This document shows positions 12,312-42,042 of a DNA stretch of 64,000 bases, piece after piece. This stretch comes from Arthrobacter sp. B3I4 (lineage in GTDB: Bacteria; Actinomycetota; Actinomycetes; Actinomycetales; Micrococcaceae): positions 124,001 through 188,000 of the forward strand of contig NZ_JAUSYK010000001.1 of assembly GCF_030816855.1 (NCBI RefSeq). The letters are read 5' to 3'. Position 1 is the first letter of the stretch; each line of letters opens with the position of its first letter. The notes below the pieces were generated by a model. It ran no database searches, was not told the origin of the DNA, and was given only the letters and a program-made list of their open reading frames with translations. The translations under genes were made by a program, and so were the position numbers.

Positions 12312-13130
12312 CTAGACGGCCTGGTTGAGCATCGGCCCCTGCGGAAAGAAGGCCCGGGTGATGCCGCCGGCCGTGGCCTGCGAAAGCTGCGCGAGGTAGT
12401 CGTTCCGGCGCCGCGGCGTGATGCGGGACTGCGGTTCGAAATTCCGGTCCGGGTCGTCCGTGTAGTGGGCGGTGAGCCCGTCGCGCATGAGGCGGATCGC
12501 CTCGGCGCGCTGCTGCGAGACGGCCGCGTGGGTGGAGCCCAGTTCGGCCGCGAGGTCCTTGACGGTCCGGTCACCGAAGTAGATCTCCTCGACGACGTAA
12601 CGCATCCGTTCGGGCAGCGACTTCACGGCGGCACGGAGGTACTGGAGCCGTTCGTCGGCCAGCACCGAGCTTTCCGGGGACAGCGTTTCTGCGGCCAGCG
12701 TGTCGACGACGGCGTCATCCAGCGGGGTAAGGGTCCGGGACGCGTCCGCGAGGGCCGCTTCGACCACGCTTTGCTGGACGCCCAGGGCCGCCGCGATTTC
12801 GTCAACGGAGGGGGTGCGGCCGAGCGCCGCTCCCAGCGTTTCCTGGACCGACATCGTCTCTTTTATCCGGCGGCGCGCCGAGCGTGTGGCCCAGTCGCTG
12901 GCGCGCATCTCGTCCGCGAACGCGCCGAGGATGCGCCGTCGGGCGAACGCCCCGAAGGGTACGCCCAGATCCGGATCGAAGGCATCAGCCGAGGTAATGA
13001 GGGCGACGGCACCAGCCGACGCAAGGTCATCGCGCGAGAGGTGTGACGCCTTCGAGCACAAATCTGAGACGAGATAGCCGACCAGCGGAAGATGCTGAGT
13101 GACCATCTCGTTTCGTTCCACGCGATTCAA
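12312..13130 (-). CDS. fliA: Flagellar sigma factor FliA/WhiG type (sigma-28 family)
   Basis: Sigma-70 family protein with regions 2, 3 and 4. Region 2 includes LSRDDLASAGAVAL and DEMRASDWATRSARRR, close to the FliA/WhiG consensus; region 4 has DLAAELGSTHAAVSQQRAEA. The start is uncertain. The TTG at 13130 (GGGGGGA 7 nt upstream) gives 272 aa, near the family's usual length. A GTG at 13121 is close, and the frame stays open to 13262. It lies at one end of the flagellar locus, divergent from a FlgN-like gene. Three promoters in the window fit the sigma-28 consensus, so it probably drives fliC, the flgB operon and the second flgN operon. No flgM is present in the window. Confidence 0.88.
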   Translation of the reverse strand: MNRVERNEMVTQHLPLVGYLVSDLCSKASHLSRDDLASAGAVALITSADAFDPDLGVPFGAFARRRILGAFADEMRASDWATRSARRRIKETMSVQETLGAALGRTPSVDEIAAALGVQQSVVEAALADASRTLTPLDDAVVDTLAAETLSPESSVLADERLQYLRAAVKSLPERMRYVVEEIYFGDRTVKDLAAELGSTHAAVSQQRAEAIRLMRDGLTAHYTDDPDRNFEPQSRITPRRRNDYLAQLSQATAGGITRAFFPQGPMLNQAV

Positions 13131-13354
13131 TAGTGTGTCCCCCCATGAGACCGGATCAGGAGCTGAGAAAGGTGGCGGCTGCACCGGAAAACCGTCGCGC
13201 GTTCCCCCCATGGGAGGCGGTATTCGAGGTCCGGGCGCAGCACCCAGATCGAAACCTATCACCTGATCCGGAATCTGCGTGTACCCTCAGGAAAAAGCTT
13301 GGCTGAAAATGCGCAAAGCCGTAATTTCGCCGGGATAGCAAGGAAATGAGGCCC

Positions 13355-13961: not shown

Positions 13962-14216
13962 TCAGCCGCGGGCCGCGGGCGGCGGCAGCAGGCCGCGAAG
14001 TGCGTCCTCGGTGCCCTGGCCAGCCTCTGCACCGGCTTCCGCTGCCGCAAGGTTGGCAGCAGCGATGGCCTCGATGACTTCCCGGCGTTGGATCGGCACG
14101 CCGCGGGGCGCCTCGATCCCAATCCGGACACCGTCGCCGCGGCCTTCCAGAACAGTGATGACGATGCCGTCGCCGATCATGATCTGTTCGCCCGGCTTGC
14201 GTGTAAGTACCAGCAT
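13962..14216 (-). CDS. csrA: Carbon storage regulator CsrA
   Basis: RNA-binding homodimer that blocks translation by binding GGA motifs in hairpin loops near ribosome binding sites. The core is canonical: MLVLTRKPGEQIMIGD, then VRIGIEAPRGVPIQRREV. At 84 aa it is longer than usual, owing to an Ala-rich C-terminal tail of about 30 residues. It is the last gene of the long flagellar minus-strand block. Its antagonist FliW is encoded about 27 kb away at the other end of the locus. Candidate targets with ACGGAT-loop hairpins lie in the fliC and flgB leaders. Confidence 0.95.
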   Translation of the reverse strand: MLVLTRKPGEQIMIGDGIVITVLEGRGDGVRIGIEAPRGVPIQRREVIEAIAAANLAAAEAGAEAGQGTEDALRGLLPPPAARG

Positions 14217-14225
14217 TCTCTCAAT

Positions 14226-15389
14226 CTACCCTTCGCGGCCCGACGCTGCGGTCCATGGTGCCGGGCCGGTCAGCGGGCGGCCGTCGATCCAGCCCACCGG
14301 CAGTCCGAGGGCGTCCACGCTTTCCGGAGTCGCGGTGTCTGCCGCACCGACGACGGCGACCGCTGCCACCTCGACCCGGGCCAGCAGCAGGCTGACCCAC
14401 CGGGCGGTGTCCTCGGGCTTACGCCCGGCGTCGACGACCACCCAGACCTGATCCGGAGAGAGCGCGGCAATGGCCTGAAGCCGGGCGAGGGTGTTTCGGG
14501 CTTTGCCCAGGCCGAAGGCGGCCAGCACCGTCTGCTCGGTCTCGACGGCGTGGGCGCGGGCCGCCGTCGCGCTGTGGCGTCCGTCCAAGTGCAGGTGGCC
14601 GTAGGCACTCAGCTCGCCAGCGGTGCGCACGTCAGCGCCACCGGCGGCCAGGGACATGGCGAGGGCGGTGTCCAGCGGATCATCGCCGAGGCCCACCAGC
14701 ACCACCAGGTCTCCGGTGCCGCTCAGCACGGCCGGCGCGGCCGGCGCTGTCCGGCGTGCCGGTGCCGCGGTCCGACCCGCCGGCGCCCCGACCGGAGCGG
14801 CGCGATTCGCCGGCACGTCTGCCGCACCTTCCCGGTCCGCGCCCTGCGGGCCGGCCGGAACCTGCACCGGTTCTGCCGCGCCGGCCGCGGTCGGCCGAAG
14901 CCCGGCGCCCAGCTGGTCCAGCAGTTCAGCGAAACCCGGCGTCTCGGTGGAGAGGGCCGGCTGGTCGGACCGGTGCAGCGTGAGCTCCGCGGCATCGGCC
15001 TCCGCCAGCAGGGCGGCGATCGCGTCGCCCTGCAGCGCGTGCCCGGGAGCCACGGCGACCCGTGCGGCCGGCACGGGCCGCGGCGTCCCGGCCGGTGCAG
15101 GCCGGGACTTCTCCCCCGGTGCCACCGGGGCGCCAGGTGCCGGGCTGGCGGACGGCGGCTCGCCGTCGGCCAGGATGTCCGCGTCCGGGATCACCTCGCC
15201 GGTGACGACGGCGTTCCGGGGCTGGAGCTCGACGACGGCCTCGTAGCGGTTCGCGGCGAAGAGCCCGGCGATTCCGGGGCTGCTGACGCGCTCGGCGGAG
15301 ATGATGCGGGCAGCCGGACCGTACAGGGCTTCTGCCTTGCTGCGGATTTCCTCAAGCGAGGCTCCCTTAAGCCGATAGCGGTTCGGCAT
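14226..15389 (-). CDS. FlhF-like protein lacking the GTPase P-loop
   Basis: 387 aa. The first 55 residues resemble the FlhF N-terminus (RLKGASLEEIRSKAEALYGP, then SPGIAGLFAANRYEAVVEL). Residues about 76-220 are an Ala/Pro-rich linker. The C-terminal part looks like an SRP-GTPase-type fold, but where FlhF has GPTGVGKTTT it has VGLGDDPLDTALA (about 232-244), with no Walker A lysine. The distal WVVVDAGRKPEDT could be a remnant of the G3/G4 region. It overlaps flhA by 23 bp, the usual flhF position. Most likely a structural FlhF derivative that cannot bind GTP normally. Confidence 0.7.
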   Translation of the reverse strand: MPNRYRLKGASLEEIRSKAEALYGPAARIISAERVSSPGIAGLFAANRYEAVVELQPRNAVVTGEVIPDADILADGEPPSASPAPGAPVAPGEKSRPAPAGTPRPVPAARVAVAPGHALQGDAIAALLAEADAAELTLHRSDQPALSTETPGFAELLDQLGAGLRPTAAGAAEPVQVPAGPQGADREGAADVPANRAAPVGAPAGRTAAPARRTAPAAPAVLSGTGDLVVLVGLGDDPLDTALAMSLAAGGADVRTAGELSAYGHLHLDGRHSATAARAHAVETEQTVLAAFGLGKARNTLARLQAIAALSPDQVWVVVDAGRKPEDTARWVSLLLARVEVAAVAVVGAADTATPESVDALGLPVGWIDGRPLTGPAPWTAASGREG

Positions 15390-21740: not shown

Positions 21741-22651
21741 TGGTTGTTCTCCTCGATGGTGACAATGACTGCGGCGGCCCGCGACCCGTTGCGGGCGGGG
21801 GCGGCGGTGGCCAGCCTCGTACCGTCCAAGGTGACGTCGAAGGGCCGGTTTTCCAGGTGCGGGAGGGTCAGAACGTCCCCGACAGCGAGGCCCAGGACCT
21901 CGCTGGGGGTGACGTACGACGTCGAGAGCCTGACCGAGAGCTCCACCGGGACACGCTCCAGCTGCGAACTGATCCGGCCGGCGGCGTCACCGCGGTTGTC
22001 CGTTGGGTTGACCTTTTTGAGCCGGCCGAGCAGCAGCGCGGCCGGGACGGCCAGGGTGGCGGGGGCGCTGATGTTGCCGACATTGATGATGAAGGCGGCG
22101 ACGATCATGAGCTCGCTGGGCGCGGCGGCCTGGGCGAACTGCGAATTGTACTGGACCGTGTCCACCCGGACGGTTTCGCTCAGCAGCGGCCCGAGCGAGT
22201 AGCCGAGGTCTTCCAGCGCCTCGTCCATGAGTCCCTTCACCAGGGCCTGCTCGATCTGGGTGAACTTCCGGTCCGGCATGGCCGAATCCTGGGAAGCGCC
22301 GAGCATCCGGTTAATCCAGCCCAGGGCTGCCGGCGCGGGGAACTGCACCACGAGCTTGGAGTCCTGCGACTCGACGGTGCACAGCACCATGGCCGTTACG
22401 GCCGGCAGGGACGCGGCGTACTCGTCGTAGCTTTGCATGCGCACGTCTTCGAGCCGCACCACGGACTTGACTCGGACCTTGGCGGTCAGCTGGGTCCCCC
22501 ACTGGCGGGCGAACGTTTCAAAGGCGAGTTCCAGGACCCTGCTGTGCTCCCGCGCCAGCGTCGCGGGACGCCGGAAGTCGTAGACACTGACGGTCCGCTC
22601 CCGTACCACTTCCCGCTCATCCAAAACACTCACGGTTTGCACTATCGGCAA
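21737..22651 (-). CDS. fliM: Flagellar motor switch protein FliM
   Basis: Middle C-ring protein linking FliG and FliN. YDFRRPATLAREHSRVLELAFE and the C-terminal SpoA segment (VGDVLTLPHLENRPFDVTLDG) are diagnostic. The start is uncertain: the TTG at 22651 has GGAGG about 5 nt upstream, a GTG at 22642 is possible, and the frame stays open to 22672. In no version does the N-terminus show the LSQxEIDALL-type peptide that binds phosphorylated CheY. It lies about 90 bp after motB. Confidence 0.93.
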   Translation of the reverse strand: MPIVQTVSVLDEREVVRERTVSVYDFRRPATLAREHSRVLELAFETFARQWGTQLTAKVRVKSVVRLEDVRMQSYDEYAASLPAVTAMVLCTVESQDSKLVVQFPAPAALGWINRMLGASQDSAMPDRKFTQIEQALVKGLMDEALEDLGYSLGPLLSETVRVDTVQYNSQFAQAAAPSELMIVAAFIINVGNISAPATLAVPAALLLGRLKKVNPTDNRGDAAGRISSQLERVPVELSVRLSTSYVTPSEVLGLAVGDVLTLPHLENRPFDVTLDGTRLATAAPARNGSRAAAVIVTIEENNQ

Positions 22652-22742
22652 GCCGTCCTCCGTCGTAAGCAAGCTGCCGCAGACAATGTCCGAGGCAAGC
22701 CGGATAGGAAGAACTCGACAGGCCAGCAGGGGGACGAACTGC

Positions 22743-34346: not shown

Positions 34347-34738
34347 CAGGATCTTCCAATCTCAAGGGCGGCGAGATAGGTCTCGCGGGCGCGATCCACG
34401 ACCTGGGCGTTGGCCTGGTAGCCGCGCTGGGCGATGATCAGCGCGCCCATCTGCTCGGCCATGTCGATGTCCGGGTATTTCACGTTGCCGTCGGCGTCGG
34501 CGAGGGGGTGGTCCGGCTGGTACACGATGCGGCCGGTGGCGTCGCCCAACTGGGTGCTTTTGACGTACACGCCGGTTCCCTCGGCACCTTCGGCGGCCTC
34601 AACGTACTTGGCGCGGAACGCCGGGCCGGAGGTGGCCGAGGCGTTGTTCATGTTGGCGAGGTTGTCCGAGACCGCGTCGAGCCACTTGCGGTGCACGGTG
34701 AGGGCGGAGCCGGCAATGCCGATGGCGTCGAAGGTCAT
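34346..34738 (-). CDS. flgC: Flagellar rod protein FlgC
   Basis: 130 aa. The N-terminus has GIAGSALTVHRKWLDAVSDN, then LANMNNA, and the C-terminus has DMAEQMGALIIAQRGYQANAQV, the paired rod helices. Proximal rod subunit. It overlaps flgB and fliE by one base each. Confidence 0.95.
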   Translation of the reverse strand: MTFDAIGIAGSALTVHRKWLDAVSDNLANMNNASATSGPAFRAKYVEAAEGAEGTGVYVKSTQLGDATGRIVYQPDHPLADADGNVKYPDIDMAEQMGALIIAQRGYQANAQVVDRARETYLAALEIGRS

Positions 34739-35079
34739 CAGTTGGTCCTCAGGGCGGCGCGGACGGCGGTGAATTCCCCGCCGATGGCACGGGCGGCGAA
34801 CTGGAAGCGCAGTACGGTGTCGATGTTCGAAAGGGTTTCCGTGTCCAGGTTCACGTTGTTGCCGTTCAGCTGGGTGGGCTCGAGTGAGCTTCCCGTGGTG
34901 GCGTCGGCATGGCCGTCCCCGGACTTCACGGACGCAGCCAGGGCAGCTTCAAAGCTGACGCGCTGGGCGTGGTAATTCGGGGTGTTGACGTTCGCGATGT
35001 TGTTCGCGATCGCACGTTGGCGCAGAGCCAGCCCGTCCATGGCGCTGGCCAGGGCGGAAGAAGTCACGGATTCGAGCAC
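34738..35079 (-). CDS. flgB: Flagellar rod protein FlgB
   Basis: 113 aa from the GTG at 35079, with AGGA about 6 nt upstream. LALRQRAIANNIANVNTPNY is the rod signature. First gene of the basal-body operon flgB-flgC-fliE-F-G-H-I-J-NlpC-fliK-flgD-flgE. Its leader carries a sigma-28-type promoter and two ACGGATC-loop hairpins. Confidence 0.95.
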   Translation of the reverse strand: MLESVTSSALASAMDGLALRQRAIANNIANVNTPNYHAQRVSFEAALAASVKSGDGHADATTGSSLEPTQLNGNNVNLDTETLSNIDTVLRFQFAARAIGGEFTAVRAALRTN

Positions 35080-35108
35080 GGAGTCCTGCCTGGGAATGTG
35101 TGGGAGGT

Positions 35109-35146
35109 GGCCGATCCGTGGCCGAGAAATCGAGCGATCCGTGCTC
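35109..35146 (-). promoter_or_regulatory. Twin ACGGATC-loop hairpins (candidate CsrA sites) in flgB leader
   Basis: On the minus strand GAGC-ACGGATC-GCTC (35146-35132) and GGCC-ACGGATC-GGCC (35123-35109) form two short hairpins with the same seven-base loop, separated by eight bases. The loop holds the GGA core that CsrA needs. Both lie within the first about 45 nt of the predicted transcript. The flgB ribosome binding site (AGGACTCC) offers a third GGA. Confidence 0.65.
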
Positions 35147-35155
35147 TTACAGTGG

Positions 35156-35182
35156 TTATCGGCACTGGTCAGCGCCGCGTTA
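35156..35182 (-). promoter_or_regulatory. Sigma-28-type promoter of the flgB operon
   Basis: Minus strand: TAAC (35182-35179), exactly 15 nt, GCCGATAA (35163-35156). This matches the sigma-28 consensus TAAA-N15-GCCGATAA at 11 of 12 positions. The predicted transcript begins near 35149, about 70 nt before flgB. Confidence 0.8.
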
Positions 35183-35237
35183 GGAGAATTGTGAAAGGTT
35201 TGTTCGGGTTTCTTCTGCTGGCCGGTCGGCGGCGATC

Positions 35238-35636
35238 TTAGCCGTTGACGTCCAGGTAGATCGCGCCGGAGGGATCGCCGACTCCTGGGACCGAGCTGAC
35301 GGCGTGCAACTGGCGTGCCACGTCCTGCTTGGCGGCTTCAAGGCGCCGTGCGACCCGCTCCTGGGCGGCGGACAGCGCCATGGCGCGCCGCCGGGCCTCG
35401 GGCGGCAGCGGGCCCCTCAGTGTTGGCGGGGACCAGCGCTGCACCGGCAAAGCAGCCACCGGCTGCCCCGGGGCGGACAACGGACCCAGCGGGTCCTTCA
35501 GCGTTTTTTCAGCGGCCACCACCGCCATCTCCAGGACGTCCAGCACCCGCAACCAGGCCGCAACGGCCGGGTCTTCGGCGGGTTCCCCGGTGGGGTCGGA
35601 GTCGGGATAGTCCTCCCAGTAGACCTGCTCAGCCAA
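35238..35636 (-). CDS. Unrecognised flagellar-operon protein in FliT position
   Basis: 132 aa if translation begins at the TTG at 35636 (GGGAG 8 nt upstream), inside the end of fliS. Begins AEQVYWEDYPDSDPTGEP. The middle is helical, a Pro-rich stretch follows, then a long Arg/Lys/Ala helix (RRAMALSAAQERVARRLEAAK). I do not recognise a family. The order fliD-fliS-this gene is where FliT, the FliD chaperone, is usually found, and size and helix content would fit. A conserved-sounding C-terminus (PSGAIYLDVNG) is not FliT-like, so function stays open. Confidence 0.7.
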   Translation of the reverse strand: MAEQVYWEDYPDSDPTGEPAEDPAVAAWLRVLDVLEMAVVAAEKTLKDPLGPLSAPGQPVAALPVQRWSPPTLRGPLPPEARRRAMALSAAQERVARRLEAAKQDVARQLHAVSSVPGVGDPSGAIYLDVNG

Positions 35637-36162
35637 AGCCAAGGCTCCCGCCGGTGGAGCCTGCCGGGGAGGCCCAGGCACCGGCCGCAGCGAAGGGCCG
35701 CCCGGTGGCCGGCGCTGCCGCCGCCGGCTGGGCAGCCGGGACTGCAGCGGCGGCTTCGTGCCAGGCCTGACGCAGGGGTTCCAGCAACTCGATCGCCTCG
35801 CGCGTCAGGGCAGGGTCACGCTGGATGTTGGCGTTGACCAGGGCCGTGAAGGCGTAGTTGTACAGGCCGAGCAGTCCGTCCGCACCGTCCCATGCGTCGG
35901 TCTTGAGCGAGGAAATCAGTTCGGCGATGATGGCCTGGCCGTGCAGCAGGTTCTCCGAGGCGACCGGCCAGTTGGCACTCTGCTGCGCAGTCTCGGCGCG
36001 GCCGAGGTCCAGCAGCAGCCGGTCGTAGAGCATGGTGAGCAGGCGTGCCGGTGGCGCGGAGAGGACCGAGTCCGCGAGGTACTGGTTGCGCTGGGCGGCG
36101 CTGCCATAACCACCGCCATAGCTGTTGCCGTAGCCGCCGTGGCCGAAGGGGGTGCTGGTCAT
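35629..36162 (-). CDS. fliS: Flagellin export chaperone FliS
   Basis: 177 aa. The FliS four-helix core is clear: NQYLADSVLSAPPARLLTMLYDRLL, split by RAETAQQ, then LYNYAFTALVNANIQRD and REAIELLEPLRQAW. A Gly/Tyr-rich N-terminus (YGNSYGGGYGSAAQRNQYL) and an Ala/Pro/Gly C-terminal tail of about 35 residues are extra. FliS binds flagellin's C-terminus before export. It overlaps fliD by one base. Confidence 0.92.
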   Translation of the reverse strand: MTSTPFGHGGYGNSYGGGYGSAAQRNQYLADSVLSAPPARLLTMLYDRLLLDLGRAETAQQSANWPVASENLLHGQAIIAELISSLKTDAWDGADGLLGLYNYAFTALVNANIQRDPALTREAIELLEPLRQAWHEAAAAVPAAQPAAAAPATGRPFAAAGAWASPAGSTGGSLGFG

Positions 36163-37496
36163 TACTTGGCGCTCCCGCCGGAGAGGCCTGCGAGCTGGGA
36201 AGTGAGCCAGGACTGTTGCGCCTTCATGTTGCTCAGGGCGGTTTCCAGACCTGAGTAGGTCCGCTGCAGGGTGGCTTTGCGGGAGGCGAGCCGGCTGTCC
36301 CAGTCGCTGATGCGGTCTGCGAGGTCACGGACTTCGGACTGCTGCCCGGTGATCTTGGTGGTCAGGGTGCCGGTGTACTTGTCCGAGGCATTGGTCGCAG
36401 CCGTGGCGATGCGTCCGGCGAGCTCCTGCACCTTGGCTGCCGTGCCGGCGGGGTCCGCCGTCAGTGCGGCACCGAACTTGGCGGCGTCAAACTCCATGGT
36501 GCCGGTTTTGGTGATGCTGATGCCGATTTCCGACGGCGAGCGCGGCGGTGTGCCCACCGGCAACGAGGCGGCGGAGAGGATGTTCTGGTTCACCGAGCGG
36601 ACCGTGCTGTCCCCGGCGAAGACTCCGGCAGAGGTTTTGGTACCGCTGGTGTTTGTGGTGGTGCTGACCGCAGTTTTACTGGCAACCAGCGAGAAGATGC
36701 CGTTGACGCCGTCCACCAGGTCGGAGGCGACCTTGGTGATGCCGGCGTCATCGCGCGAGACAGTCAAGGTGACAGGGGCAGCACTGATTTCCTTGGCCGT
36801 GAGCGTCACTCCAGGCAAAACGTCCACAAACGTGTTCGTTGAGGACTTGATCGTGGCCTGTATCGCGACCGGGCTCGACGGCCAGAGCACGAGCTCAGCG
36901 TCCTGGGGAGCCTTGATATCGGTAAAAGCCGAACCTGGGTCAGTGATGGTGAAGGCACCGGCTGCGCCGGACTTTGTGGCGGTGAACTGGATCCGGAAGT
37001 CACCGCCGCCGACGTCGACCTTGGTCGCGGTGACTCCGGCACCCGCAGCATTCACGGCGCTGACGACGTCGTCAAGGTTGCTGGTGAGCGGCTCGATCGT
37101 ATAGGGCGTTCCGCCGCTGTTGATCGTCATGGTCGTGTAGGGCCAGCCCGTGACTGCGTTCACCTTGGGCGTTACGGTGACCTGGGTCTGCGCCAGCTTG
37201 GTCACCTGAAAGTCGAGCGAGCCCGCTTTGGCGGCCGCGGTGGTGGTGGCGACGACCTTGTCGCTGCTGGTGGTCGCAGTGTAGAGGTCCAGCGCGCCCG
37301 GCTTGGCAGCGGCCGTTGCCTGGGTCGCCAGGGCGGCTACTTTTCCGTTGAGCCCTTGCAGGGCTGAAACCATCGACTGGATGTCATAGGACTTGTTCTT
37401 GAGCAGGGTCTGCGGGAGGGCCTCTGACTGCATGATCGAGCCGATCAGGGCGGTGGTATCCAGTCCGCTGGCCAGCCCGTCGAGTGAGATTCCCAT
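36162..37496 (-). CDS. fliD: Flagellar filament cap protein FliD
   Basis: 444 aa. N-terminal GISLDGLASGLDTTALIGSI is the FliD (HAP2_N) signature, the middle is beta-rich, and the C-terminal coiled part (RDLADRISDWDSRLASRKATLQ is split by its heptads, then QRTYSGLETALSNMKAQQSWL) is HAP2_C. It caps the filament and folds exported flagellin. The 186-bp gap from fliC holds that gene's terminator, so fliD may rely on read-through or a weak promoter. Confidence 0.95.
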   Translation of the reverse strand: MGISLDGLASGLDTTALIGSIMQSEALPQTLLKNKSYDIQSMVSALQGLNGKVAALATQATAAAKPGALDLYTATTSSDKVVATTTAAAKAGSLDFQVTKLAQTQVTVTPKVNAVTGWPYTTMTINSGGTPYTIEPLTSNLDDVVSAVNAAGAGVTATKVDVGGGDFRIQFTATKSGAAGAFTITDPGSAFTDIKAPQDAELVLWPSSPVAIQATIKSSTNTFVDVLPGVTLTAKEISAAPVTLTVSRDDAGITKVASDLVDGVNGIFSLVASKTAVSTTTNTSGTKTSAGVFAGDSTVRSVNQNILSAASLPVGTPPRSPSEIGISITKTGTMEFDAAKFGAALTADPAGTAAKVQELAGRIATAATNASDKYTGTLTTKITGQQSEVRDLADRISDWDSRLASRKATLQRTYSGLETALSNMKAQQSWLTSQLAGLSGGSAK

Positions 37497-37562
37497 CGCT
37501 GCCTCTCTTGTTGGTCAAGAACGCTTAGTGCTGCTGCTTTTTGCAGTGTCGGTGTTGCGCGT

Positions 37563-37599
37563 AAGGGCCGGACGATGGTTTTGCCATCGTCCGGCCCTT
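37563..37599 (-). terminator. Terminator after fliC
   Basis: A perfect 16-bp inverted repeat, AAGGGCCGGACGATGG / CCATCGTCCGGCCCTT, with a 5-nt loop, lies about 85 bp past the flagellin stop on the minus strand. It has no strong T-tract. It would make fliC largely monocistronic, as expected for a gene needed in excess. Confidence 0.8.
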
Positions 37600-37682
37600 C
37601 CGCAGCTTGCTGATCGGGGGTGTCTCTTCGTCCGATCAGGGTGGCAGCCTGACTTCTAGACTGCCGGTTTGGCGGGTCCGGC

Positions 37683-38519
37683 CTAGCGCAGGAGCGAAAG
37701 AACGCCCTGGCTGGACTGGTTTGCCTGGGCCAGCATTGCGGTGCCGGCCTGGGACAGGATGTTGGCCTTGGTGAACTTGACCATTTCCTGCGCCATGTCG
37801 ACGTCGGCGATCCGGGACTGAGCGGCCTGCAGGTTCTCACCGGCAACGTTCAGCGACTTCACTGCGTGCTCAAGGCGGTTCTGGGTGGCACCCAGGTCTG
37901 CGCGCTGCGCCGAGACGGCCGCGATGGCCGTGTCGATGGTGCCGATCGTGGTCTGGGCGTCACCGTTCGTGGAGACGTTGAAGCCGCCAGCCGTGGTGGA
38001 GCTGGACAGGGTGCCGGTTGCCGTAGCGACGTCACCGAGCGTGACCGCGATGGTGTCGTTGGCGGTGCCGCCGGCGCCGACCTGGATGTTCAGCGAACCG
38101 CCCTTGAGCAGGTCCTTGCCATTGAAGTTGGTGCCCTGGGTGAGGCGGTCCAGCTCCTTACCCAGCGAGTCACCTTCCTTCTTGATGGCGTCGCGGGCTG
38201 CCGTGTTGTTGGTGTCGTTCGCACCCTGGACAGCGAGGTCACGCATGCGCTGGAGGATGGAGTGAACTTCGGTCAGGGCGCCTTCCGTGGTCTGGATGAC
38301 CGAGATGCCGTCCTGGGCGTTGCGTGCAGCCTGGGCCGAGCCGGTGACCTGCGCTTTGAGGCCCTCGGAGATGGACAGGCCTGCTGCGTCATCGCCGGCG
38401 CGGTTGATGCGCAGGCCGGTGGACAGCTTCTCCAGGGACTTGGAGAGGTCGTTCTGGGTGGAGTTGAGGTTGCGGTACGAGTTGTTAGCCGCGAGGTTGT
38501 TGTTAATGACGAAGCCCAT
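37683..38519 (-). CDS. fliC: Flagellin
   Basis: 278 aa, filament subunit. The N-terminal D0/D1 reads NNNLAANNSYRNLNSTQNDL, then SLEKLSTGLRINRAGDDAAG; the C-terminal D1/D0 reads LNVAGENLQAAQSRIADVD and ends SQGVLSLLR. The central region is short, so the filament is of the compact type. ATG with GGAGGA 6 nt upstream. Leader: sigma-28-type promoter, one CsrA-type hairpin with ACGGAT loop, and a GGA inside the Shine-Dalgarno. Confidence 0.97.
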   Translation of the reverse strand: MGFVINNNLAANNSYRNLNSTQNDLSKSLEKLSTGLRINRAGDDAAGLSISEGLKAQVTGSAQAARNAQDGISVIQTTEGALTEVHSILQRMRDLAVQGANDTNNTAARDAIKKEGDSLGKELDRLTQGTNFNGKDLLKGGSLNIQVGAGGTANDTIAVTLGDVATATGTLSSSTTAGGFNVSTNGDAQTTIGTIDTAIAAVSAQRADLGATQNRLEHAVKSLNVAGENLQAAQSRIADVDMAQEMVKFTKANILSQAGTAMLAQANQSSQGVLSLLR

Positions 38520-38525
38520 GATGTT

Positions 38526-38569
38526 TCCTCCGTGAGTTGGGACTGTAAGCGAGGGCCCATCCGTGGGCC
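38526..38569 (-). promoter_or_regulatory. CsrA-type binding region in fliC leader
   Basis: On the minus strand GGCCCA-CGGA-TGGGCC (38569-38554) puts CGGA in the loop of a perfect 6-bp stem; read with its closing bases it is ACGGAT, as in the flgB leader. A second GGA sits in the Shine-Dalgarno CACGGAGGAAA (GGAGGA at 38531-38526). One upstream hairpin plus a site covering the ribosome binding site is the arrangement described for the hag leader in Bacillus subtilis. Confidence 0.75.
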
Positions 38570-38580
38570 GTCAGGAGTAG

Positions 38581-38607
38581 TTATCGCCACTACGGCGGCG
38601 GCGGTAA
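38581..38607 (-). promoter_or_regulatory. Sigma-28-type promoter of fliC
   Basis: Minus strand: TTAC (38607-38604), 15 nt, GGCGATAA (38588-38581). Same spacing as the other two sites; two or three positions differ from TAAA-N15-GCCGATAA. The predicted start, about 38574, gives a leader of about 55 nt. Confidence 0.75.
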
Positions 38608-38675
38608 GGAAAAACGAGAAATTCTTTTCGAGTTTCCTGAGCCGCAAGAATCCGCTTGTTTTCAGCCCTTCCTGC

Positions 38676-38702
38676 TAACGCCTGCGTAAACCCTGCCGAT
38701 AG
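38676..38702 (+). promoter_or_regulatory. Sigma-28-type promoter of flgN-flgK-flgL-fliW
   Basis: TAAC (38676-38679), 15 nt, GCCGATAG (38695-38702). It lies about 110 bp upstream of the second flgN and is divergent from the fliC promoter in the same 294-bp gap, which holds no gene. Confidence 0.75.
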
Positions 38703-40723: not shown

Positions 40724-41647
40724 ATGCTGAACCGGGTAACAAACCTGACCATGAACGCGGCCGCCCAGCGGACCTTGCAGACGCAGCAGGCCAAGTTGGC
40801 CGAACTGCAGGACAAAGCCACGACGCTGAACAAGATCTCCCGCCCCTCGGACGATCCCGCCGCCACCGCGCAGGCCCTGGCTACCCGCTCTCTCCAGGCG
40901 GCCAATGCCCAGTACGGCAGGAACATCGACGACGGCAACACTTGGCTCACGGCGGCCGATGCCGCACTGGAGCATGCCACCAACGTGATGCACCGGGTCA
41001 AGGACCTTACCGTCATGGCCGGTAACGACGCCCTGCCGCAGTCCGGCAAGGACGCCATCGCCAACGAGTTGGAGTCACTGAACCAGGACCTGGTCTCGAT
41101 CGCCAACAGCCAGCACCTGGGCCGCAACATCTTTGCCGGCAGTTCGGACGCACCCGGAGCCTTCACCCCCGGCACCCCGCGCGATCCGCGCATCCCCGGC
41201 GACACCGGAACCCCGCCCACATTCAACGGCACCGGCATCAGCCCGGTTGAGCGGCGGATCAGCGCCACCCAGAGCGTCCGGGTCGACGCTGACGGGGCCG
41301 CCATCTTCGGCAACGGCAGCGGTTCCGTTTTCGACATCGTGAGCAAGCTGGCCGCCGACCTGCGCACCGGCACGGACATTGCCCCGCGGGCGGCCGACGT
41401 CGACGCCGCGTTTAAGACCATCGTCAACGGCCGTGCTGAAATTGGAACACGGCAGGCACAGCTGGAACGTGCCGGCAACGTCAACACCGAATTGGAGGCC
41501 TCCTTGGACGCCCAGAGGACCGGTATAGAAAAGGCTGACCTTGGCAGCGTGATCATGGACCTGAAGCTTCAGGAAACCAACTACCAGGTGGCCCTCGCCG
41601 CTACCGCCCGGGTGCTGCAGCCCACGCTGATGGACTTCCTGCGATGA
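40724..41647 (+). CDS. flgL: Hook-filament junction protein FlgL
   Basis: 307 aa. N-terminus MLNRVTNLTMNAAAQRTLQT, then ISRPSDDPAATAQALATR, and C-terminus KLQETNYQVALAATARVLQP are flagellin-like D0/D1 helices of the FlgL (HAP3) type. It starts 4 bp after flgK and overlaps fliW by 4 bp. Confidence 0.95.
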   Translation: MLNRVTNLTMNAAAQRTLQTQQAKLAELQDKATTLNKISRPSDDPAATAQALATRSLQAANAQYGRNIDDGNTWLTAADAALEHATNVMHRVKDLTVMAGNDALPQSGKDAIANELESLNQDLVSIANSQHLGRNIFAGSSDAPGAFTPGTPRDPRIPGDTGTPPTFNGTGISPVERRISATQSVRVDADGAAIFGNGSGSVFDIVSKLAADLRTGTDIAPRAADVDAAFKTIVNGRAEIGTRQAQLERAGNVNTELEASLDAQRTGIEKADLGSVIMDLKLQETNYQVALAATARVLQPTLMDFLR

Positions 41648-42042
41648 ACGCCGTTCTGAGCAGCACGCCGGTAACGTTTACCGCCCCGATGCCGGGGCTG
41701 GAAACCGTCCACGACTTCGCTCTGCGGAACATCGACAGCGCCCCGGGCCTGTTCGCCCTCGAAGCAGAGCAGCCCGTTACCGTGCGGCTCTTTCTGGCGG
41801 ACGCCGCTGTGTTCGTTCCGGGCTACACCCCGCCGCTACCGGCCGGCGCCAGGGAGGCCCTGGAACTCCGTGACGGTGAGGCGCCGCAGGTGCTGGTGGT
41901 GGTCAACCACTCCCCCGCTGCCACAACCGTGAACCTGATGGCGCCCATCGTGCTGAACCCTGCAACGCGGCGCTGCGCCCAGCTGGTGCTGGACGGCAAG
42001 GAGTACCCGCTCCGGGCAGACCTCGGCGCACTCCAACGCTAA
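41644..42042 (+). CDS. fliW: Flagellar assembly factor FliW
   Basis: 132 aa. FliW binds flagellin's C-terminus and, when freed, binds CsrA allosterically and relieves flagellin repression. Recognisable parts are FTAPMPGLETVHDFAL, LFALEAEQPVTVRLF, and VVVNHSPAATTVNLMAPIVL, close to the FliW consensus NLxAPIVIN. It is last of flgN-flgK-flgL-fliW, while csrA closes the opposite end of the locus. Confidence 0.94.
   Translation: MNAVLSSTPVTFTAPMPGLETVHDFALRNIDSAPGLFALEAEQPVTVRLFLADAAVFVPGYTPPLPAGAREALELRDGEAPQVLVVVNHSPAATTVNLMAPIVLNPATRRCAQLVLDGKEYPLRADLGALQR

Follow-up and report, generated by a model that had tools for sequence, protein, structure and literature searches.

In the window analyzed here, a 64,000-nucleotide stretch of the genome of Arthrobacter sp. 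B3I4, the leader of flgB, the gene heading the basal-body operon of a flagellar locus, harbors two adjacent hairpins with GGA in their loops, and a third such hairpin lies in the leader of the flagellin gene fliC. Comparison of these leaders across genomes is decisive, confirming that the hairpins are real. We surmise that the flgB leader is probably a tandem candidate element for CsrA binding, situated at or near the 5' end of the mRNA. The general features of CsrA targets are present here, namely a short hairpin whose loop contains GGA, mostly as part of ANGGA, and a csrA gene in the same genome (3.6 Mb for that of the window). CsrA is the best candidate ligand of the leader hairpins, and we think it very likely that it binds the flgB element; the basal-body operon would therefore belong to the CsrA-FliW circuit, which we regard as likely. 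CsrA-FliW control of flagellin has been established in Bacillus and Campylobacter (PMC6529632, PMC7652899, PMC4894983; here and below, published systems are considered as presented in the accessible parts of the cited papers), and contacts of CsrA with other flagellar mRNAs are also known. What is new here, as far as we have searched, is the presence of tandem GGA hairpins on an actinobacterial flgB leader.

Leader hairpins in the window and across genomes

On the minus strand of the window, hairpin 1 of the flgB leader (GAGC-ACGGATC-GCTC, 35132..35146) is predicted to lie near the transcription start, and is followed by hairpin 2 (GGCC-ACGGATC-GGCC, 35109..35123), a match to our hairpin descriptor, and by the ribosome-binding region and start codon of flgB (AGGACTCC-GTG, 35077..35087, with the GTG at 35079), where a GGA is present that is not a conserved CsrA-type site. 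The fliC leader, on the same strand, comprises a single hairpin (GGCCC-ACGGAT-GGGCC, 38554..38569) upstream of the ATG at 38519, together with a ribosome-binding site, CACGGAGGAA (38525..38534), that is itself a CsrA-type site of the form ANGGA. All three ACGGAT-loop hairpins of the original prediction, two before flgB and one before fliC, are thus present as it described them, and promoter-like matches of the sigma-28 type do stand directly upstream of both leaders (for flgB, CTAAC-N15-GCCGATA at 35157..35183; for fliC, a match at 38582..38608; both on the minus strand), these being pattern matches rather than mapped promoters. A further pattern match on the plus strand (38675..38701) lies ahead of flgN-flgK-flgL-fliW, and the absence of an ANGGA hairpin from that leader provides an internal contrast.

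Taken singly, this genome offers modest evidence, since the hairpin descriptor is loose, with 49 matches on both strands of the window. ACGGAT was not overrepresented in the window, where 28 sites were counted vs. 24.28 expected. Likewise, the promoter pattern (CTWAC-N15-GSCGATA) had 4 matches in the whole genome vs. 4 for a backward control pattern, so the promoter count by itself is not above chance; three of these four matches precede flgB, fliC and flgN, with the remaining one (22643-22669) located inside a coding sequence of the same locus.

The flgB leaders compared came from 106 genomes: 32 belong to the genus of the window, 34 represent 15 further genera of its family, and 40 represent 13 further families of its order. 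Presence of csrA had been the basis for selecting the 66 genomes from within the family (28 of 101 genus genomes and 38 from 97 csrA-bearing ones), and the 40 order genomes were taken from 93 flgB-matching genomes outside the family; csrA was present in all 40 of these, which had been chosen by flgB. Start codons of the order-level loci and of those added later were assigned by script, and a number of them could be incorrect (e.g. L178, L179, L189). A tandem pair of ANGGA hairpins was found in 93 of the 106 flgB leaders (genus 32/32, other family genera 31/34, other order families 30/40), as compared with none of 4240 shuffled flgB leaders and 0.56% of 8000 random windows. For fliC, with 102 leaders (L190, L195, L196 and L197 gave no FliC match), the hairpin was present in 95 (31/32, 31/34 and 33/36, respectively) vs. 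3-7% of shuffles, and was lacking in G091, G129, G177, G203, L173, L188 and L189. Seven control loop cores occurred in 2 to 9 of 106 flgB leaders and in 0 to 13 of 102 fliC leaders. A chance origin of the hairpins is ruled out by the shuffles, the random windows and the seven control loop cores. The fliC leaders of L168, L171 and L172 contain a tandem ANGGA pair, and the flgB leader of L168 has none.

Among loci of named genomes, the pair was present in 77 of 80 (Arthrobacter, Sinomonas, Paenarthrobacter, Microbacterium, Curtobacterium, Cryobacterium, Leifsonia, Frigoribacterium, Cellulomonas and others), some of these loci being from the same genomes as in the set of 106; outside the order, it was found in 14 of the 23 loci read from 38 matching genomes, often with different second stems. 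Two alignments, A2 (35 rows from 65 representatives) and A3 (48 rows from 95), were made only from leaders in which the hairpins had been found. A covariance model built from A2, whose own members are therefore expected to match, recovered the flgB leader at E < 0.001 from 33 of 41 sources, no other sequence reaching this level, and located it in 73 of the 74 named loci given to it out of the 80. Two contigs titled as Acidobacteria metagenome-assembled genomes (L280 and L288) encode FlgB 65-66% identical to that of the window, and L288 also matches the hairpin module; judging from these similarities, they may be mis-binned actinobacterial contigs.

At a distance of 3.9-5.4 kb downstream from the flgB module, the covariance model also detected a strongly matching second copy in 8 loci of Microbacteriaceae, belonging to Microbacterium and Frigoribacterium (L253:8842-8888, L272:8840-8886, L278:8837-8883, L270:8822-8868, L273:9012-9060, L263:8919-8967, L281:10165-10210 and L276:10301-10346). 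Just upstream of these second copies is a -10 of the CGATAGT or CGAGAGT type, detected by script in seven of the eight and visible for the eighth, and the frames downstream matched Pfam FliH above cut-off in 4 of the 5 scanned (those of L253, L272, L270, L273 and L263) and below it in the fifth. Second copies with a -10 ahead of fliH suggest that the promoter-like site and the hairpins move jointly, as a cassette, before genes of the flagellar basal body and export apparatus.

Arrangement and folding of the flgB module

The leaders of flgB and fliC differ in how the GGA motifs are placed. ANGGA lies within 24 nt of the start codon in 101 of 102 fliC leaders vs. 8 of 106 flgB leaders, with a plain GGA within 20 nt of the flgB start in 68 of the 106; the original claim that each mRNA carries another GGA at its ribosome site is correct for flgB and fliC of the window, but does not extend to flgB in general. 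Judged against hag, the flagellin gene of Bacillus, the fliC leaders have both a hairpin and ANGGA at the ribosome site (95/102 and 101/102), whereas most flgB leaders lack the CsrA-type ribosome site. The start codon is GTG in 93 of 106 flgB genes and ATG in 100 of 102 fliC genes. Within the flgB module, the two loops are 19-28 nt apart (22-23 nt in 68 of 93) and vary in length from 6 to 9. The stems had been described as unrelated, which is true between flgB and fliC; among themselves, however, the flgB stems are strongly conserved across genomes, the variants of hairpin 2 in other lineages including GCCC/GGGC, GCGCC/GGCGC and CGCC/GGCG.

The position of the module relative to the promoter is nearly constant: the -10-like site is 12-14 nt from the loop of hairpin 1 in 108 of 110 leaders having such a site, out of 114 leaders with the pair. 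This count covers 125 loci, of which these 114 have the pair, accepts GGA loops outside the ANGGA rule and omits the class-level loci L297, L303, L305 and L311 (without the pair) as well as L315. From the loop of hairpin 2 to the flgB start the distance is 34-78 nt (sd 10.5, median 41 nt), as compared with 39-56 nt (sd 2.8) from the fliC hairpin to its start. The flgB module is thus anchored to the promoter-like site, and its distance to the start codon varies. Hairpins are unsupported as a general trait of leaders of the sigma-28 type, as only 1 of 34 flgN-side leaders behind a promoter-like site contains an ANGGA hairpin; this set comprises those of the 102 fliC loci whose upstream sequence was long enough and in which the opposite strand has a promoter-like site, the identity of flgN being assumed.

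This arrangement bears on the explanation that CsrA represses flgB in the same manner as flagellin, by blocking the ribosome, which we consider unlikely. There is the precedent of Bacillus hag, hairpin 2 is near the ribosome site in most genomes, as reflected in the median distance, and a plain GGA close to the start is common; on the other hand, ANGGA at the ribosome site is rare in flgB and nearly universal in fliC, and the distance from hairpin to start is loose, reaching 78 nt in the order, while that to the promoter-like site is fixed. Given that the flgB ribosome site is rarely of the CsrA type and that the distance to the start varies, ribosome blocking of the hag type does not follow from the presence of the hairpins, and the effect of CsrA on flgB could be of opposite sign.

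With respect to RNA structure, A2 and A3 are limited to hairpin-bearing leaders, which makes percentages of paired positions partly circular and two-sided changes less so. By the latter measure, the fliC stem clearly covaries, with 63 two-sided cells vs. 21.6 in shuffled alignments (0/500 as high) and a maximum of 24 when the stem was slid; covarying stems had been proposed as a check on both leaders, and those of flgB are instead mostly conserved in sequence. The fliC hairpin is predicted to form in 95 of 95 genomes in the nascent RNA, in 92 with the RNA extended to the start codon and in 80 with 36 nt of coding sequence. For hairpins 1 and 2 of flgB, the corresponding numbers among 93 genomes are 89 and 88 in the nascent RNA, 76 and 46 to the start codon, and 47 and 11 with 36 nt of coding sequence. 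In the window itself (38500-38590, minus strand), the minimum-energy fold pairs the 5' arm of the fliC hairpin with the start codon region instead, the hairpin being favored in 80 of 95 genomes.

Several observations weigh against the flgB leader as a CsrA-binding RNA element: 1) its stems covary weakly, with 11 two-sided cells vs. 2.7 in shuffled alignments (1/500 as high) in 3 of 9 pairs, and further pair types number 4 vs. 3.8; 2) sequence conservation of these stems, most of all that of GAGC/GCTC, exceeds what structure alone would require; 3) once 36 nt of coding sequence are included, hairpin 2 gives way to predicted long-range pairing in most genomes; 4) the tandem ANGGA pair is missing from 13 of the 106 leaders (G129, G224, G298, L168, L177, L183, L184, L185, L190, L195, L196, L197 and L204), with several of these keeping one ANGGA hairpin and some having another hairpin with a GGA that does not satisfy the strict rule; 5) the flgB leaders of G129, G298, L168 and L195 are devoid of ANGGA hairpins, a leader of the tandem-hairpin kind being absent from G129; 6) G298 (locus L068) retains csrA, the fliC hairpin and both flgB stems, but has lost GGA from both loops of the latter; 7) in C. 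jejuni, there was no enrichment of flgB mRNA with CsrA (about 1.6-fold), and loss of csrA left FlgI, FlaG and FlaB substantially unchanged (PMC4894983). Loss of the hairpins in close relatives that keep csrA/fliW had been named as a point that would count against the original prediction; the pair has been kept in 93 of 106 flgB leaders, and G298 is a case in which both GGAs were lost. The G298 leader amounts to a natural double loop variant.

Some of these features would suit dyads acting as DNA, with GAGC-N7-GCTC and GGCC-N7-GGCC serving as operators or as part of the initially transcribed region of a sigma-28-type promoter. Such a role, to which we give only a small chance, would accommodate the fixed distance to the promoter-like site, the conserved stem sequences, the GGA-less stems of G298 and the recurrence of promoter-like site and module together before fliH. 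It fits poorly with the retention of sense-strand ANGGA by both loops in 93 of 106 leaders, where it breaks the dyad symmetry, with the variable loop length and with the fliC hairpin, which has the same loop on a different stem that does covary. Because the ANGGA core breaks the symmetry, is kept on the sense strand and is rarely replaced by its complement (TCCNT-loop hairpins were seen in 3 of 106 flgB leaders), RNA is favored over DNA as the form in which the flgB module acts.

Another explanation at the RNA level is a two-state switch based on pairing of the flgB start region with part of the module, e.g. with the 5' arm of hairpin 1, a highly improbable reading in our view. In the minimum-energy fold predicted for the window, GAGCACGGA is paired with UCCGUGCUC at the flgB start; GTG is the prevailing flgB start codon; and on removal of the module, the ribosome site becomes more open by >0.1 in 26 of 93 genomes and more closed in 2. 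Within the genus, pairing with the ribosome site is somewhat higher for native modules than for swapped ones (0.377 vs. 0.288). Over all 93, however, native and other-family modules are at 0.302 vs. 0.289, with the native module higher in 43 of 93. The start-codon switch suggested by the window fold (hairpin 1 arm with the GUGCUC start) was set aside, as native modules were no better than swapped ones over the 93.

CsrA and the timing of flagellar assembly

The window shares with Bacillus subtilis hag (PMC6529632, PMC7652899) the presence of csrA and fliW, and before the flagellin gene, an upstream GGA hairpin with a CsrA-type ribosome site; fliC has a hag-type arrangement and is most likely repressed by CsrA. 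Unlike the B. subtilis system, there is here a second flagellar leader, that of flgB, with tandem hairpins and usually without a CsrA-type ribosome site. In E. coli flhDC, two CsrA sites near the 5' end protect the mRNA from RNase E, thereby stabilizing it (PMC7652899). The flgB leader would be similar in having two candidate sites near the 5' end and off the ribosome site in a flagellar operon, a layout that it fits by its predicted promoter only, but in contrast to flhDC, which encodes a master regulator, flgB heads a rod and basal-body operon for which 5'-end protection is hypothetical.

We postulate that CsrA likely controls the basal-body operon through an arrangement unlike that of flagellin, perhaps by 5'-end protection and perhaps with the opposite sign. 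In such a scheme, one CsrA dimer would clamp both GGA loops of the flgB leader, 22-23 nt apart; export of flagellin would free FliW, the presumed protein antagonist of CsrA, allowing it to take CsrA away. The sign of the effect of CsrA on flgB is the least certain part of this explanation: should CsrA bind, there is about an even chance that it stabilizes or activates the mRNA via the 5' end, repression appears rather doubtful, and mere titration of CsrA more doubtful still. The original prediction held that the feedback on flagellin also gates flgB; conserved GGA hairpins in both leaders, csrA in all 40 order genomes and FliW in the locus speak for CsrA at flgB, but not for the same gating as at flagellin.

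Titration alone would make the flgB-operon mRNA a sponge drawing CsrA off fliC, an improbable role in our estimate. Two good sites off the ribosome site do resemble decoy RNAs, and titration of CsrA by flaA mRNA has been proposed in C. jejuni (PMC4894983). The TwoAYGGAY family (RF01731), known from human gut, Gammaproteobacteria and Clostridiales and listed as not cis-regulatory (PMC2864571), is likewise a proposed CsrA binder, with two such loops, two AYGGAY motifs by its name and two strong matches to the CsrA hairpin motif, as in flgB (PMC4333381). Neither 4001 nor 121 bases of the window matched RF01731 at E values up to 10, and we found no Rfam family matching the flgB element. That the flgB element sits on the leader of a structural gene, at a fixed distance from the promoter, would be needless for a sponge.

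Binding of CsrA to the flgB leader would add to published contacts with basal-body mRNAs. In C. jejuni, CsrA binds flgI, flgH and flgE mRNAs, and the FlgI level drops without fliW (PMC4894983); RNA immunoprecipitation sequencing in Pseudoalteromonas fuliginea placed CsrA on rod and hook gene mRNAs (PMC11882849); and in Acidithiobacillus caldus, CsrA binds flgC mRNA, in a study that also lists flgB primers (PMC13029372). In all three, CsrA is tied to basal-body mRNAs as proposed here, and a tandem 5'-proximal element is not described in the accessible parts of these papers. The genome paper of the actinobacterium Kineococcus radiotolerans proposed CsrA control and noted the absence of flgM (PMC2587704); in its accessible text the proposal covers flagellin only and the flgB leader is not discussed. 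We found no description of an actinobacterial flgB CsrA element in the open-access literature searched, so the statement that no such control had been described stands for Actinobacteria within that search, but not for other bacteria, given the flgI, flgH, flgE, rod, hook and flgC mRNAs above.

Why a second CsrA-responsive leader would matter relates to FlgM. FlgM was absent from flagellated Actinobacteria sequenced by 2008, with FliA control in its absence noted as an open question (PMC2587704), and was lost in later actinobacterial classes (PMC10746217). In our data, FlgM (PF04316) was found above cut-off in none of 80 flagellated genomes, including that of the window, with one weak match in a 514-residue frame. 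As the basal-body operon and flagellin are both preceded by promoters of one type, promoter identity gives no obvious clue as to which is early and which is late, and ordering must come from elsewhere; CsrA-FliW is a candidate timing device. A conserved element that differs between the flgB and fliC leaders points to such timing and offers a short, mutable sequence, and the flgB hairpins may help to time building of the base vs. building of the filament where the usual timing protein is not found. Taken further, and with considerable reservation, we speculate that flagellated Actinomycetia, in which no FlgM was found, use a portable promoter-leader cassette, consisting of a sigma-28-type promoter and 5'-terminal tandem GGA hairpins, by which CsrA would support basal-body operons (flgB and some fliH), while repressing flagellin via a leader of the hag type. 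Release of FliW upon flagellin export would flip both, so that one RNA-binding protein acting in opposite directions on two leaders would take the place of the FlgM transcriptional checkpoint.

Organization of the flagellar locus

The flgB gene itself (34738..35079, minus strand; NCBIfam TIGR01396 and others) heads a near-gapless run to fliJ, continuing towards fliK and flgE. The minus-strand order is fliC-fliD-fliS, then flgB-flgC-fliE-fliF-fliG-fliH-fliI-fliJ, with further matches past fliJ to fliK, FlgE/F/G, flbD, motA, fliM, fliN, fliO, fliR, flhB, flhA, csrA and then a FliA/WhiG-like sigma gene; flgN-flgK-flgL-fliW form a run on the plus strand. Flagellin is encoded by the reading frame at 37683..38519 (minus strand), with relatives in 28 of 28 genomes. 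As proposed earlier, csrA (13962..14216, minus strand) and fliW (41644..42042, plus strand; Pfam PF02623, with relatives in the PDB) are close to opposite ends of the flagellar locus. CsrA of the window, 84 aa with a C-terminal extension, matches solved CsrA chains in an ungapped alignment at L4, R6 and R44, residues that are important for RNA binding, and from its sequence appears to be an ordinary member of the family. The sigma factor gene (12312..13262, minus strand) had FliA/WhiG (TIGR02479) as its best NCBIfam model, with a score under the cut-off.

Between fliS and the flgB leader is a 147-residue frame (35238-35681, minus strand) without a Pfam match. The gene located between flhA and csrA (14226-15389, minus strand), which had no Pfam match and a marginal one to FlhF (E 0.0086), is possibly a degenerate FlhF-like gene.

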